A stretch of DNA of 64,000 nt from Phycisphaerae bacterium (lineage in GTDB: Bacteria > Planctomycetota > Phycisphaerae > UBA1845 > PWPN01): positions 62,001 through 126,000 of the forward strand of contig JAGNEZ010000012.1 of assembly GCA_018003015.1 (NCBI GenBank). Direction: 5' to 3'. The notes under the pieces were generated by a model, which ran no database searches, was not told the origin of the DNA, and saw only the letters and a program-made list of their open reading frames with translations. Positions 2,266 to 62,396 of this stretch are shown in pieces. The translations under genes were made by a program, and so were the position numbers. How positions within the stretch are numbered: the stretch's first letter is position 1; every line of letters starts with the position of its first letter.

Positions 2266-2541
2266 GGTTTCGCATGCACGTGGCCCTCTCGGGTACTTCT
2301 GGCCACCCCGCAGGCGGCGCCTGAATGCGCCGGCACCTGGTCTGCTGGCCATAGCCCTATGACCACGCCTTCCGGGCCATCTGGGCTGTTGCCATGCGGT
2401 CTTTGCGGAGTATAACGGGTGTGCAGGTGACACCGGCGACGACGCCGGAGATCATGCAGAGGGACATGCTCATGGCTGAACCGTCAGGCCAGACCTTTTC
2501 CGCCCGGCGGCTGGCGAAGCTGGATCTTGGAGAGGGGAACC

Positions 2542-3201
2542 ATGGCTGACCGCACGACGATCATCCTTGCGGACGATCACGCCCTGGTCCGGGGGGCGGT
2601 GAAGACCGTCCTGGAGCGAGAGGCGGACCTGGTCGTGGTGGCGGAGGTGGGCAGCGCCGACGAAGCGGTCGCTGAGACGCTGCGTCTGAAGCCCGATGTC
2701 GTGCTTTTGGATATTGAGATGCCGGGCCAGCACAGCTTCGAGGCGGCCAGGACCATCAAGTCCCGGCTTCCGAAGACGCGAGTGGTCTTCCTCAGCGGCT
2801 TCCATCATGATCGCTACATCGAACAGGCCATACTGGTCCAGGCATCCGGCTACCTGAGCAAGGGCGAGCCGCCGCAACGACTCGTGGAGGCGATCCGCGC
2901 GGTCATGGCCGGTGGGGTCTGCTACTCGCCGGAGATCCAGGCGCGCATCATCATCCACCCGGACGGTCGCCACAAGCTGAGCCCGGCGGGGCACACCCGG
3001 GCGGCCAGCCTCACGGAGAAGGAACTGGCGGTTCTGCGTTACATCGCCCGGGGTCTTTCGAAAAAGGAGATTGCCCTGCAGATGAGTGTGACGCTCTCCG
3101 CCATCGACCGCCATTGCACGCGGCTCATGGCCAAACTCGATATCCATGATCGCGTGGACCTGACCAAATTCGCGATCCGCGAAGGCCTGGCGGAACCCTG
3201 A
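2542..3201 (+). CDS. NarL/FixJ-family response regulator
   Basis: Two-domain transcriptional regulator of 219 residues. The receiver domain (about 1-125) has the acidic pair DDH near residues 11-12, phospho-acceptor Asp57 in LLDIEMPG and the conserved Lys in GYLSKGEP. A LuxR-type helix-turn-helix (about 150-212) contains LTEKELAVLRYIARG and KKEIALQM. Phosphorylation would control DNA binding. The ATG at 2542 follows GGAGAGGGG; an in-frame TTG at 2527 is less likely. No histidine kinase is adjacent, so it is an orphan. The 276 bases upstream (2266-2541) show no gene and probably hold its promoter. Confidence 0.9.
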   Translation: MADRTTIILADDHALVRGAVKTVLEREADLVVVAEVGSADEAVAETLRLKPDVVLLDIEMPGQHSFEAARTIKSRLPKTRVVFLSGFHHDRYIEQAILVQASGYLSKGEPPQRLVEAIRAVMAGGVCYSPEIQARIIIHPDGRHKLSPAGHTRAASLTEKELAVLRYIARGLSKKEIALQMSVTLSAIDRHCTRLMAKLDIHDRVDLTKFAIREGLAEP

Positions 3202-3449
3202 AATCAGGTCGTCGCCCGCCGTCGGAGCCGTCCGATAAGCCTATGGCGGGCAGATGTATGTGTTTGCATCCCCCATATCCCCTCAAGTCAAGCCGATGCC
3301 GTGTTGTAGGTGGACGAAGGTGCGCCGGGGTGCGGGACCACCCGGCATTGTGGGACAAACGGCGGACGCAACGTCGCGCCGGGTTTCCGATCAAGTGATC
3401 AAGTGACGACGGTCCAAAGAACGGCGACAGTAACGGGGAGACGACAGAG

Positions 3450-5408
3450 ATGAAAAAGAGAATGAAACTCTCGACGAAAATGGCCCTTGGTTTCGGTGCG
3501 CTCGTGACCATCTCGGTTCTGCTGGGCCTGGCGAGCTGGAACGGCCTGAGGGACATCAACACCAAGCGTGCTGTTCTGGAGCAAGGGGCCGTCGTTCTGG
3601 AGCGCATGGGAAACTGTGCCACATTGAGGCGCGATTTCGCAGCCTCCGGCTTTGAGAAGGCCAATGGCGAGACCAAGAACGCCGCCGAAAAGTGGTACGA
3701 CGCCCACGCTCAGCTCCTGGCCGCCTTGAAGGACATTGAAACCACTTCGGGGATCGACACGGAGCAGGTCGGGCAGATCCGCAAAGTCGCGGGCTACGCC
3801 GATACCTACAAGAGCTCTTTCGACAAGATGGCTGATTCCCGCAAGGTCCGTGACCAGGCACGCACGGACTGGCGCAACCTGGGTAACAGCATCACCCGCG
3901 ATATCGCCACCGCGCTTCGAGAGACGATCGAGCCCGCCCTCGAGAAGGCCAAGGCTGACAAGAACATCGACGACCTCACGACCTGGTCCGCGGTGTCCAT
4001 TGAGCTGGATCGCGGTTTCATCCAGCCCTTCCTCCTCTTGCGGGTTGCCGGCACCTATCTGTTCGTTACGGGTGCCGAGCAGCAGTGGACCGAGTGGCAG
4101 GCTCAGTACGAAGTGGTCAAGGAAGGCCTGGGCAAGTGGTCTACACTGGCCAAGGGTACCGCCCAACTCGATAATCTGACCAAGGCATTGACTGGCTACA
4201 TGCAGCAGTACGAGACGGCTGCGATCAGCTATCACGGCGGACTGGTCACCGAGCGAGAAGCGGTACGGACGCTGGCCGACGCGGCCAAGAACGTGGTGAC
4301 TGAGACCAACACCTTGAACAGCCGGCTCAGCCAGGAGATGCAGTCGGTGACTGCCCGAACCCAGGTCATGATCATGGCGATGGGGATCGGCGCCCTGGTC
4401 ATCGGGACCATTCTGGCCGTTCTGATCACCCGCAGCATTGTCCGGCCGATCAGTCGCATCATCGAAGGTTTGAATGAAGGTGCCGATCAGGTCAACGATG
4501 CCGCCGCGCAGGTTGCCGACGCCTCGCAGCAGTTGGCGGAAGGAGCCAGCGAGCAGGCCTCGTCGCTGGAGGAGACTTCCAGCGCCCTGGAGCAGATGGC
4601 GGCGATGACGCGTACCAACGCGGCCAGTGCCAAAGAAGCCAACGACCTGGCCCTCAAAACGCGGCAGACCGCCCACGAAGGTGACCAGACCATGGGGCAG
4701 CTCAACGAGGCCATGGCGGGCATCAACGGCTCCTCCGAAAAGATCAGCAAGATCATCAAGGTGATCGAGGAGATTGCCTTCCAGACCAACCTGCTCGCGC
4801 TCAACGCGGCGGTCGAGGCCGCCCGAGCAGGTGAACATGGCAAGGGTTTTGCAGTCGTGGCCGACGAGGTCCGCAGCCTCGCCCAGCGTTGTGCCCAGGC
4901 GGCCAAGGAGACGACCGGCCTGATCGAAGACGCCGTCAATAAGTCGCACGAGGGTACCCGCGTGGCCAGCGAGGTGGCCAAGTCCCTGGCCGCCATCGTC
5001 GGCGACGTGGGCAAGGTCTCCGACTTGATCAACGGCATCTCCAAGGCATCGGACGAACAGGCGGTTGGCGTCGACCAGGTCAACACCGCGGTCAGCCAGA
5101 TGGACAAGGTCACCCAGCAGAACGCTTCCGGAGCGGAGGAATCCGCGGCCGCCGCGGAGGAACTCGCCGCCCAGGCCCAGTCGGTCAAGGGACTCGTCAC
5201 CGAATTGGTCGGCATTACCACCGGCGGTACCCTGGGCAGCGAACCGACTTCGGCCGCCCGGGGGACGACCAAGAAGGCGGCCAGCTCACCCGTCGTCAAG
5301 CCGCTGAGTCGGCTTGCCAAGCCCAAGCTGATCTCCAAGACCCCGAGTTCCCCGGCCAGCGAGGCCATACCCTTGGACGCGGACGGCAACGAGCCCAACG
5401 ATTTCTAG
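3450..5408 (+). CDS. Methyl-accepting chemotaxis protein
   Basis: Transmembrane chemoreceptor of 652 residues. TM1 lies at about 10-30, a sensory region at about 35-300 (largely helical, possibly a four-helix bundle), TM2 at about 306-327 ([14 protein letters not shown]), then a short HAMP-like linker and a long helical signalling domain. The kinase-contact hairpin tip is clear at about 440-480 ([18 protein letters not shown], then [17 protein letters not shown]). Alanine- and glutamate-rich stretches on either side suit methylation helices. There is no C-terminal CheR-binding pentapeptide; the protein ends EPNDF. A GGGGAG motif precedes the ATG. No che genes are nearby, so it must signal to an array encoded elsewhere. 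The ligand is unknown. Confidence 0.93.
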
Positions 5409-5432: not shown

Positions 5433-5476
5433 GGGGACAAGTGTCGATCCGGCATGGACGCTTGTCCCCTCTCTTT
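5433..5476 (+). terminator. Rho-independent terminator after the chemoreceptor gene
   Basis: A 13-bp stem (5433-5445 with 5457-5469, one G-U pair) encloses an 11-base loop and is followed by a T-rich run TCTCTTT. It begins 24 bases after the chemoreceptor stop codon, so it ends that transcript and isolates the deaminase gene downstream. Confidence 0.85.
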
Positions 5477-5690: not shown

Positions 5691-7292
5691 ATGAAGACAC
5701 GCATTGATCATGCCTTGGTGGTGACGCCGCGCGACAAAGGCGTGGCCGTGCTCGATGACTGCTCCATCGAGTTCGAGAGCGGCGTCATCACCCGGCTTGG
5801 CCAGACTCGAAAGACCGTGCCCATTCCGGCTCGCGCGGCCATCAAGGATGTCCGGCTCCAGGAGCTGCATGGCCGACCGCTGGGGGCGATCCTCTTCAGG
5901 CTCGGATTGGTCACCCCCGAGGAGGTTGCTCGGGCCCTCGAAAGGCAGAAGACGCGTTATGGTGTCATCGGCCAGATGTTGACGGAGCTGGCGTTCGTCA
6001 CCGAGAGCGAAATCGAGTTTGCCCTGGCGATCCAGGCTGGCCGCGGTGCAGAAGAGGAGCCGGACAAGGAGGTGACGGTCATCGACGGCCGCGGCACGCT
6101 GGTGACCCCGGGGCTGGTGAACACCCACCACCACCTGTTCCAATCGCTGACCCGCTGCAGGACCGACGTTCAGGCGGCGACGTTGTTCAGCTGGCTGACG
6201 ACGCTGTACCCAATCTGGCGCGGGTTGTGCTACGACGATCTGCGGCAGGCGGCAGCGGTCAGTCTGGCAGAGCTTGTCGTCAGCGGTTGCACGACCACCA
6301 GCGATCATCATTACCTGTTCCCCAACGGCAGCGATGTGCGGCTCGAGGCGATCCTCGAAGCCGCCGAACAGGTGGGCATCCGCATTCACGCCTGCCGAGG
6401 CAGCATGAGCACGGGGCGATCGGCCGGTGGGCTTCCGCCCGACGAATGCGTCGAGAACGAGGAGAGCATTCTGGCCGACTGCCAGCATGCCCTGCTTCGT
6501 TTCCACGACGCCAGGCCGATGTCCATGCGCCGGATCGACCTGGCTCCCTGTTCGCCGTTCAACATCACGCCGGAACTGTTCGACGAGACACGGGTGCTGG
6601 CTGCCGAACACCATGTTCTACTGCACACCCATGCGGCCGAGACCCTTGACGAGGAGCGGTTCTGCCTGGAACGGTTCGAAGTACGACCGATCGAGTACCT
6701 TCACCGGCACGAGTGGCTGGCGGACAATGTCTACCTGGCCCACTGCGTGCATTTGAATGATCGGGAGATCCGCCTTCTGGCGGAGACGCATACCGGCGTG
6801 GCCCATTGCCCGTCATCCAACATGCGGCTGGCCAGCGGGGTGGCACCGATCCGGAAGATGCTTGACGCGGGCGTCAAGGTCGGCCTTGCCGTGGACGGCA
6901 GTAGCAGTAATGATGGCGGCAGTATCCTCGCGGAGGCCCGACAGGCCCTGCTGCTCCAGCGGGTCGGCGGCAACCCCGCCGGTATGACCGCCCAAGAGGC
7001 GTTCCGCCTGGTGACCGCCGGCGGCGCGGCGGTACTGAACCGCAAGGAGCTGGGCAGGATCGAGCCAGGCTGCGCCGCCGACCTGGCCCTCTTTGATCTC
7101 AGCGACGTAGCCTTCGCCGGTGCCATCGCCCAGGATCCGATCGGAGCGTTGATACTGGCCCAGCCGCCCCGGCCACGCGACGTGTTCGTCGCCGGCAAGC
7201 GGGTGGTTGAAGCTGGTCGGCTCTGTACCCTGGACGGCCTCCGGCTCGTGGCGGACTTCAACCGCCTGGTGCAACGGAAGTACCGGGCGTAG
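5691..7292 (+). CDS. 8-oxoguanine deaminase-like amidohydrolase with inserted GspE-N-like segment
   Basis: Amidohydrolase of 533 residues, most like 8-oxoguanine deaminase and the TrzN/AtzA group, which hydrolytically deaminate purine or triazine rings. The metal site is visible: NTHHHLF (His146, His148), LLHTHAAET, LAHCVH and the late Asp in VDGSSSND. Family members are about 450-460 residues. The excess comes from about residues 51-125, inserted between the N-terminal strands and the barrel. This segment carries LGAILFRLGLVTPEEVARAL and a second similar half (IGQMLTELAFVTESEIEFAL), resembling the paired helical motifs of GspE-N/MshEN domains. I start at the ATG at 5691; the upstream open frame has no protein-like composition. 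It follows the chemoreceptor terminator and has its own promoter, not identified. Confidence 0.8.
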   Translation: MKTRIDHALVVTPRDKGVAVLDDCSIEFESGVITRLGQTRKTVPIPARAAIKDVRLQELHGRPLGAILFRLGLVTPEEVARALERQKTRYGVIGQMLTELAFVTESEIEFALAIQAGRGAEEEPDKEVTVIDGRGTLVTPGLVNTHHHLFQSLTRCRTDVQAATLFSWLTTLYPIWRGLCYDDLRQAAAVSLAELVVSGCTTTSDHHYLFPNGSDVRLEAILEAAEQVGIRIHACRGSMSTGRSAGGLPPDECVENEESILADCQHALLRFHDARPMSMRRIDLAPCSPFNITPELFDETRVLAAEHHVLLHTHAAETLDEERFCLERFEVRPIEYLHRHEWLADNVYLAHCVHLNDREIRLLAETHTGVAHCPSSNMRLASGVAPIRKMLDAGVKVGLAVDGSSSNDGGSILAEARQALLLQRVGGNPAGMTAQEAFRLVTAGGAAVLNRKELGRIEPGCAADLALFDLSDVAFAGAIAQDPIGALILAQPPRPRDVFVAGKRVVEAGRLCTLDGLRLVADFNRLVQRKYRA

Positions 7293-8256: not shown

Positions 8257-8361
8257 CTCTCTCAGCGGCCGGCATTCGGTCGTCGGATCTCCCTGAACGG
8301 GCCACGGTCCCATCCCGAAGGAGAAATGCCAGACGCCCAGACGGCGTGAGGAGTGTCGCTC

Positions 8362-9411
8362 ATGATTCGAGGCATATGCGGGTTCGCGATGTTGCTGGTG
8401 ACGGCCCCCACCGTGTCCGCTCTGAAGCCTGGAGACGCGCCCCCAGCGACCCAGGCCAAGAACCAGGAGGGCAAGACCGTCGACCTGGGCGGTCTGTACG
8501 GCCATCGGCCGGTTGTCCTGTTCTTCTACCCCAAGTCCTTCACCTCCGGCTGCACGGTCGAGGTCCAGGCCTTCCGCGACGCCGACAAGGACCTGCGCGC
8601 CTTCGACGCTGCCGTCTTTGGCGTGTCTTGTGACGAACAGGACACTCAGCACAAGTTCTGCGACTCCTATAGACTCAAGTATGATCTTCTGGCCGACAAG
8701 GAAGGTGTCGTCGCCAAGGCCTTCGACATCCCTGTGAACAACGGCCTCAGCGCCCGCTGGACGGTGGTCATCGGCCGGACCGGCAAGGTGCTCCTGATCG
8801 ACTCGAACGTGAGCAAGGACATCAAGGGACACCCCGCGAAGGTCGTCTCCGCTCTGAAGCAGGACTGGGAGCAGTACGTCGCCGGGTTCAAGCCGCTCTT
8901 CAACCGCAAGGACCTGGAAGGCTGGAAAGCGATCGCCGCCGAATCGGACACCTGGAAGGTAGTCAACGCCGAACTCCACTGCACCGGCAAGCCAACCTGC
9001 TACGTCCGCACCAAGGCGAGCCACAAGGACTACAAGCTGCTCCTGGAGTTCATGTATCCCGAGAAACTCGGCAACGCTGGCGTTCTGGTGCACATCAACG
9101 GCGAGGACAAGGTCTGGCCCCAGTCGATCGAGCCGAACCTGAACGTCGATCAGATGGGCAAGATCTACCTCATCGGCGGTGCATCTCTCGAGTACCTGAA
9201 GGACAATCCCTCGGCCAAGGTCGACATTCCCCCCGGCGTGTGGCACCGCTACGAGATCACCTGCAAGGGTGACACGATCCGCCTGGCGCTCAACGGTGTC
9301 GTGGTGAACGAGTGCAGGAAGGCGTCTCCGTCCTCCGGTACGATCGGCCTCCAATCCGAAGGTGTCCCCATCCGCTTCCGGACGATCGCGGTCAAGTCCC
9401 TGGTTCAGTAG
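8362..9411 (+). CDS. Secreted peroxiredoxin fused to a DUF1080-like domain
   Basis: A two-domain protein of 349 residues. After a signal peptide (about 1-20) comes an AhpC/TSA-type thioredoxin fold (about 21-165) with FFYPKSFTSGCT, giving peroxidatic Cys64 in the TxxC context of BCP-type peroxiredoxins; Cys90 and Cys100 are possible resolving residues. From about 175 to the end is a DUF1080 (3-keto-disaccharide hydrolase-like, concanavalin-type sandwich) domain: FKPLFNRKDLEGWK, ELHCTGKP, LLLEFMYP, NAGVLVHING, GVWHRYEITCKGDTIRL. DUF1080 domains usually stand alone or join other carbohydrate domains. The ATG at 8362 follows GAGGAG with 8-base spacing; a GTG at 8353 is the alternative. A single uninterrupted frame makes an assembly artefact unlikely. 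Confidence 0.85.
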   Translation: MIRGICGFAMLLVTAPTVSALKPGDAPPATQAKNQEGKTVDLGGLYGHRPVVLFFYPKSFTSGCTVEVQAFRDADKDLRAFDAAVFGVSCDEQDTQHKFCDSYRLKYDLLADKEGVVAKAFDIPVNNGLSARWTVVIGRTGKVLLIDSNVSKDIKGHPAKVVSALKQDWEQYVAGFKPLFNRKDLEGWKAIAAESDTWKVVNAELHCTGKPTCYVRTKASHKDYKLLLEFMYPEKLGNAGVLVHINGEDKVWPQSIEPNLNVDQMGKIYLIGGASLEYLKDNPSAKVDIPPGVWHRYEITCKGDTIRLALNGVVVNECRKASPSSGTIGLQSEGVPIRFRTIAVKSLVQ

Positions 9412-61226: not shown

Positions 61227-62396
61227 TCAGAAGGCTGCCGCCAAGGCTTCGGTGAGCTCTTCGGAGGCGAGCGCGATCGGGTTGCCCTTGGTACTGCCGG
61301 CCACCTGGACTCTCTCCACGATCCAGGCGAAGTCCTCGGTCGAGATTCCCTGCTCTCGAAGCGGCTTGATGGACAGCGAGGCGCACAGTTCGCGAATCCA
61401 GCTTACTCCGTCCTCTGCGGTGGCAAGGGGTTCGCAGGTGACGAGCCGAGCGATTTCCGCATAGCGAGCCAGGGCGTTGCTGCCCGGCTGGCGTTTCTGC
61501 AGGGCCCGGAGATTGACGGCCATCACGTGTGGCAGGAGTGCGGCGCAGATCTCGCCGTGGGGAGCGTTGAACCGACCACCGATCGGGCCGGCGAGACCGT
61601 GTACGGCCCCAAGGCCGGCGTTGGCCAGGGCCAAGCCGCCAAAGAGGCTGGCGATACACATTTCCTCGCGAGCGTCGGCGTCCCACGCATCCTGGTAGAC
61701 TCGCGGAAGAGCTCGTGCCGCCCGTTGGATGCCCTCGCGACAGATGCCGTCGGTCGTTGGATTGGCGCGGGCAGACACATACGGCTCGATGAGCTGGGTG
61801 AGGGCATCCAAGCCGGTGCTCGCGGTCACTGCCTTGGGGAGTTCAAGGGTCAGCTCAGGATCGACCAGGGCCAGTCGGGGAAGCATCAGCGGACTTCGCA
61901 GGCTGACTTTGACACGATGTTCGGTGGAGGTCAGCACCGCGTTGCGGGTGACCTCGGATCCGGTGCCGGCAGTCGTGGGGATGGCGATGACCGGCAGTGG
62001 CGGATGGGTCAAGGGCTTGTTGTGGCCGATGACCTCGAGGTAATCGAGCGTATCGCCGGGGTTGGTGGCCAGGGCGGCGATGGCCTTGCCGGCGTCGATG
62101 GCGCTGCCGCCGCCGAAGCTGATCACCAATGAACAGCCGTCGTGGCGGACCTGCTCGGTTCCCCAGTAAACGGCGTCAATCGTGGGCTCGCCGGGCATGC
62201 TGAACGTTCGCGAGTCGATGCCCCTAGGTTGCAGGAGTTCCACCAGTCGGCCGGCGCGTGCGGCCGAGCGCCCGCACACCAGGAGTGCACGTGGGTTTTC
62301 CTGACCGGGCAGGGTTTCTCCGACCAGACGGCCGATTTCGTCGAGCGTACCGGGGCCAAAGACAATCCGTGATGCGGTGGCGAACTCAAAGCGCAT
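61227..62396 (-). CDS. Iron-containing alcohol dehydrogenase
   Basis: Group III alcohol dehydrogenase, 389 residues. The NAD site is [15 protein letters not shown] with [15 protein letters not shown]; metal ligands are Asp in [13 protein letters not shown] and three His in [20 protein letters not shown]. The N-terminus [20 protein letters not shown] is typical. It oxidises or reduces a small alcohol/aldehyde, perhaps an intermediate in sugar catabolism. The start at 62396 lies 5 bases after the upstream stop, implying coupled translation with the monooxygenase-like gene. The longer frame to 62489 overlaps that gene and is rejected. Confidence 0.93.

Follow-up and report, generated by a model that had tools for sequence, protein, structure and literature searches.

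A putative c-di-GMP-binding MshEN_N domain nested in a guanine-type deaminase of one planctomycete family

Results

The window analysed here (the whole stretch of 64,000 nucleotides, positions 62,001 to 126,000 of contig JAGNEZ010000012.1 of a Phycisphaerae bacterium) carries on its forward strand, at 5691..7292 with the stop codon included, the gene for a 533 amino acid amidohydrolase of the 8-oxoguanine deaminase type, here called P0001. The ATG at 5691 was preferred as start over a longer open reading frame beginning at 5454, which has no backing, because relatives of the protein, the other carriers described below among them, have the same MKTRIDHA-type start. The whole protein scored 570.2 bits against the NCBIfam 8-oxoguanine deaminase equivalog NF006055 (PRK08203.1; curated cut-off 532) and matched PF01979 at E 3.7e-57. 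The N-terminal strands of the small domain (residues 1-40, 5691..5810) can be aligned in homologues with and without the insertion that is the subject of this work, and the strand with the metal-binding HxH motif (residues 129-150, 6075..6140) contains H146 and H148, found in 29 of 29 aligned homologues. Invariant in the same 29 are H312, H314 and E317 (6624..6641), H351 (6741..6743) and D402 (6894..6896); E317 was taken by motif as the catalytic E243 of poNdmH, H351 as its proton-shuttle histidine H275 and D402 as its catalytic aspartate D326 (PMC13054789). The HxHxxQ, HxxE, His and Asp set is complete (H146, H148, Q151, H314, E317, H351 and D402, all invariant), and because 14 of the 15 active-site positions checked do not vary among the 29 homologues, N291 being the exception, P0001 is likely to be an active metal-dependent deaminase. 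At the NdmH C-Q-N-N positions the segment CSPFN (287-291) reads, by eye, C, S and N for three of the four. A nucleobase deaminase had been proposed at this locus, and an assignment to the 8-oxoguanine or guanine type is supported at family level by the NF006055 score, but does not extend to the exact substrate, which stays putative. The nearest enzymes in the PDB, 3hpa and 7ww2, align to P0001 only from residue 117 or 130 onwards.

Just upstream, at 2527-5408 of the window, lie a response regulator (REC plus LuxR-type) and a methyl-accepting chemotaxis protein, conserved only with a genome of the same genus. Further downstream, at 8353-9411, is a 352 amino acid protein that joins an AhpC/TSA redoxin domain to a 3-keto-disaccharide hydrolase domain (PF06439), and in genome G003 (L095:5136-7774) the genes ahead of the carrier encode a DUF362 protein and another, distant amidohydrolase. 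When the neighbours were compared across genera none was conserved and none linked the enzyme to c-di-GMP, and operon logic was accordingly set aside as a clue to function.

Two repeats had been predicted within 5841-6065 (residues 51-125), and these are borne out: motif I (PLGAILFRLGLVTPEEVARALERQ, residues 63-86, 5877..5948) and motif II (VIGQMLTELAFVTESEIEFALAIQ, residues 92-115, 5964..6035), of 24 residues each, are spaced 29 residues apart and are identical at 9 of 24 positions. With the five-residue linker between them (residues 87-91), as in MshE, residues 63-115 have exactly the 24+5+24 layout (53 residues) of the MshEN c-di-GMP unit (PMC5013675). The existence of an inserted domain stood, but its predicted limits did not, since it extends from about residue 59 to residue 118 (5865..6044) and is flanked by linker 1 (residues 41-58, 5811..5864) and linker 2 (residues 119-128, 6045..6074). 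Identity of P0001 to carriers of other genera is 50-62% in the domain, against 0-25% in the linkers (6-25% in the first, 0-20% in the second).

Residues 41-133 matched the profile NF053729 (c-di-GMP_motif) over positions 1-53 of its 53 at E 1.4e-19, two stretches together giving 69.7 bits against a cut-off of 38; in a six-frame search of the genome the best single stretch within the insert reached 46.2 bits. Full-length matches above the cut-off were obtained in P0001 and in three further carriers tested. A profile made from four inserts and two PilB/GspE domains matched the PDB chains of PilF (E 1.3e-19), MshE (2.5e-8) and PilB (6e-6), and the best PDB sequence match of the insert was to the PilF GSPII-C motifs. 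PF05157, on which the original prediction was to be checked, gave no match to the insert at E 10, but it is the wrong model for this segment: in the genome's own PilB/GspE protein (L086) NF053729 aligns at 8-60 and PF05157 only after it, at 62-150, so the insert comprises MshEN_N alone and lacks the following subdomain which PF05157 describes. Matches to DUF4388 (E 0.05-0.1 in P0001 and 0.0011 in L015, all below cut-off) were dismissed as weak cross-matching. Counting consensus letters was not decisive as a sole test; P0001 scored 13 of 22, and among 2000 shuffles the best also reached 13 (mean 9.0). The identity of the insert is therefore based on profiles, structure and conservation.

AlphaFold2 models of the insert alone, built from three sequences, have four main helices, with a best-of-five pLDDT of 78 and other models down to 48; the isolated segment is thus predicted to fold as a MshE/PilF-like four-helix unit. 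Its top Foldseek matches were the c-di-GMP-bound PilF-GSPIIB and MshE structures, at 0.6-0.7 Å rmsd over about 55 residues (0.6 Å across 56 columns for MshE), E 0.02-0.04 and probability 1.00, with a VIA Z of about 10, a value that would not on its own be conclusive for a small bundle of helices. In both sequence and structure searches of the insert the MshEN family came out on top, above unrelated entries. The full-length model, from six sequences, had a pLDDT of 43 and was unusable for coupling geometry; viral contigs searched for further homologues with which to deepen the full-length alignment yielded none. Profile, structure model and family alignment agree on a MshEN-like double motif inside an amidohydrolase, and that the insert is a MshEN_N domain inserted in a deaminase we regard as close to certain.

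The insert occupies the same site in seven genomes from six genera of one planctomycete family. Among the 13 genomes examined for this family, full-length carriers are present in six (G000, G001, G003, G004, G007 and G010), the carrier gene of G002 is cut short at a contig end, the enzyme of G005 is free of the insert, and the others have no strong homologue. The insert is absent from about 30 aligned homologues of other families, insert-free enzymes being common in the same order, and in samples of the class and phylum no strong match spanned it among the matches listed (down to E 1e-100 and 1e-90, respectively). An assembly or reading-frame artefact was rejected because the insert lies in frame at one site in all seven genomes, whose whole-match identities range from 50 to 94%. 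In a tree of the catalytic part, which is 64-75% identical to P0001 in the full-length carriers of other genera, the carriers group together on a single branch (87/87, recovered in 88% of 200 bootstrap trees) and the G005 copy groups with another family (99/95). This topology suggests that the insert was gained once, and that the G005 copy was separately inherited or transferred.

Conservation within the insert is concentrated on the pocket, defined from published structures as positions 1-4, 17, 21 and 24 of each motif: 11 of the 14 pocket positions are invariant in carriers, as against 7 of 39 others (Fisher p 9e-5). In all seven carriers motif I keeps P63, L64, G65, L83 and Q86 and motif II keeps V92, I93, G94, Q95, L112 and Q115, so both glutamines and both glycines are retained, and position 2 is Leu in the first motif and Ile in the second. 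Departures from the published consensus are also consistent, with position 1, where R/K/L is expected, invariantly P in motif I and V in motif II, and position 17 mostly V/I in place of L in both; in motif II of P0001, moreover, position 10 is A where G is expected. The inserts score 13-16 of 22 consensus letters, compared with 21 for MshE. Some of the pocket conservation is accounted for by constraints of the fold, the two glutamines being its most ligand-specific part, and selection for a ligand has probably acted on the pocket. Were the insert instead a neutral or structural spacer, folded within a loop at the surface and perhaps lending stability to the small domain or the dimer, with neither ligand nor partner, one could explain the hypervariable linkers, the frequency of insert-free enzymes in the order and the dN/dS of 0.40 for the insert (0.075 for the catalytic part) in the closest pair, P0001 and L043, a single comparison with few sites. 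Such a spacer would have no need to keep two glutamines known to hold ligand, nor does its retention across six genera with invariant pocket positions fit well, and we consider it unlikely.

The probable source of the insert lies within the lineage itself. Two N-terminal motifs from PilB/GspE proteins of this family share 48-62% identity with the inserts, and have GRPLG, HG(V/P)IGQ and QAG in common with them, so that a copy of the lineage's PilB/GspE motif is the likely donor, as far as sequence comparison can tell. The genome's own ATPase (L086, C98:10174) reads KGRPLG...HGPIGQ...QAG and is 46% identical over 63 query residues, and against the L018 insert the identity of this type of motif rises to as much as 62%; the ATPase has PIG in motif II where the insert has VIG, and its motif is followed by the PF05157 domain and the ATPase. 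Proline at position 1 of motif I is common to insert and PilB/GspE, which may therefore have the same non-canonical role. This kinship is what would favour a docking module, by which the deaminase is tethered to pilus or secretion machinery, or to another protein, with no nucleotide bound: N-terminal domains of PilB/GspE ATPases contact partner proteins, that of X. citri PilB binds PilZ without a c-di-GMP motif (PMC8389850), and the genome has seven PilZ-domain matches. The known PilB-PilZ contacts are, however, mainly in ND1 (PMC8389850), a subdomain absent from the insert, and conservation has fallen on the ligand pocket, both glutamines included, and not on other positions, so docking appears rather unlikely.

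Elsewhere the genome has seven GGDEF matches, and in total 11 matches to the c-di-GMP motif, which occurs also in PilB/GspE ATPases, a CheA-type kinase and, below the cut-off, a protein kinase. In the CheA-type kinase (L089, G000:C34:53749-53910) the motif lies between the N-terminal part and the kinase core, and in the protein kinase (L093) the sub-threshold match is N-terminal. A 136 amino acid open reading frame (L092, G000:C32:33489-33632), located roughly 1 kb ahead of a GGDEF protein, matches the motif weakly at 31.9 bits, which is below the cut-off.

Discussion

The explanation we prefer is that the 8-oxoguanine/guanine-type deaminase of this family would have gained, on one occasion, a MshEN_N copy most like the lineage's PilB/GspE N-terminal motif, in a loop of the small N-terminal domain, some 28 residues ahead of the metal-binding HxH. 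This copy would most likely still bind c-di-GMP, or a close relative of it, between its two motifs, and binding may shift the flanking strands, one of which reaches the metal ligands H146 and H148 within about 28 residues of sequence, and change deaminase activity or assembly in cis. Guanine-base salvage or clean-up would in this way be coupled to the cell's c-di-GMP state.

The NF053729 match, the fold model, the pocket conservation and the GGDEF proteins of the genome all argue for c-di-GMP, as do precedents from PilF and NfrB. MshEN_N by itself was reported to suffice for binding (KD 0.35 uM; PMC5013675), and the glutamines and glycines of MshE and PilF form side-chain and backbone hydrogen bonds to the ligand, the glutamines holding its phosphates and riboses (PMC5013675, PMC11731258). 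Lacking arginines, PilF-GSPIIB binds c-di-GMP at 6 nM, and PilF-GSPII-C, in which one motif begins with Pro (P335), retains binding at 0.3-0.5 uM (PMC11731258), although the motif pair responsible in GSPII-C is inferred by us. Against this reading stand P and V at position 1, for the latter of which, in motif II, we found no tested precedent in the literature, the degenerate consensus, and the loss of binding known from some MshEN domains (XpsE, X. citri PilB ND0 and PilF GSPII-A), together with the dN/dS of the insert, the insert-free G005 enzyme and the lack of a linking neighbour gene. Since the arginines are absent and a precedent for Val was not found, and despite the arginine-free binding of PilF, we hold c-di-GMP as the ligand with an effect on the enzyme only tentatively, at a little below an even chance. 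Another guanine compound (pGpG, GTP, or a nucleobase akin to substrate or product) could occupy the same pocket, making for metabolite feedback and not second-messenger control; the host enzyme belongs to a family acting on guanine-type bases (PMC13054789), and in its stacking positions, always P and V, the insert differs from known c-di-GMP binders. We think this highly improbable, as the 29-residue spacing and both glutamines fit the two-fold c-di-GMP site, and a specificity of MshEN for c-di-GMP, with binding of cGAMP as well, has been reported (PMC5013675).

If c-di-GMP control is true, second-messenger control would reach directly into base catabolism, and a signal of bacterial lifestyle may directly govern an enzyme of the housekeeping type. 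The enzyme is small, has natural insert-free homologues as controls, and its insert probes the limits of divergence from the c-di-GMP consensus, with Pro and Val replacing Arg. In the one literature collection searched no paper was found to name both MshEN and amidohydrolase, nor was anything direct found on c-di-GMP control of purine deaminases; the parts are known, and their nested combination is new as far as that collection shows.

Compared with known systems, the host enzyme resembles the 8-oxoguanine deaminase/NdmH/AtzB cluster of the amidohydrolase superfamily (3hpa, 7ww2; PMC13054789, PMC6186785) in having all of the catalytic residues, and differs by an insert that its own order-level homologues, about 30 in number, do not have. 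MshEN domains have been described on pilus and secretion ATPases, on signalling proteins and on a glycosyltransferase. The MshEN_N of V. cholerae MshE (5htl; PMC5013675) has the same 24+5+24 layout, four-helix fold and Leu/Gly/Gln pocket frame; the insert differs in having neither the position-1 arginines nor MshEN_C, and is nested in a metal-dependent deaminase where the MshE copy heads an ATPase. Thermus thermophilus PilF (PMC11731258) is comparable in that its GSPII-B binds c-di-GMP without arginine and its GSPII-C has Pro at a motif start, but it is a pilus ATPase with full GSPII domains. As an enzyme with an attached MshEN, E. coli NfrB, which is reported to be allosterically activated by c-di-GMP (PMC8669469), is a further likeness, although there the domain is a C-terminal fusion to a membrane glycosyltransferase and its consensus is intact.
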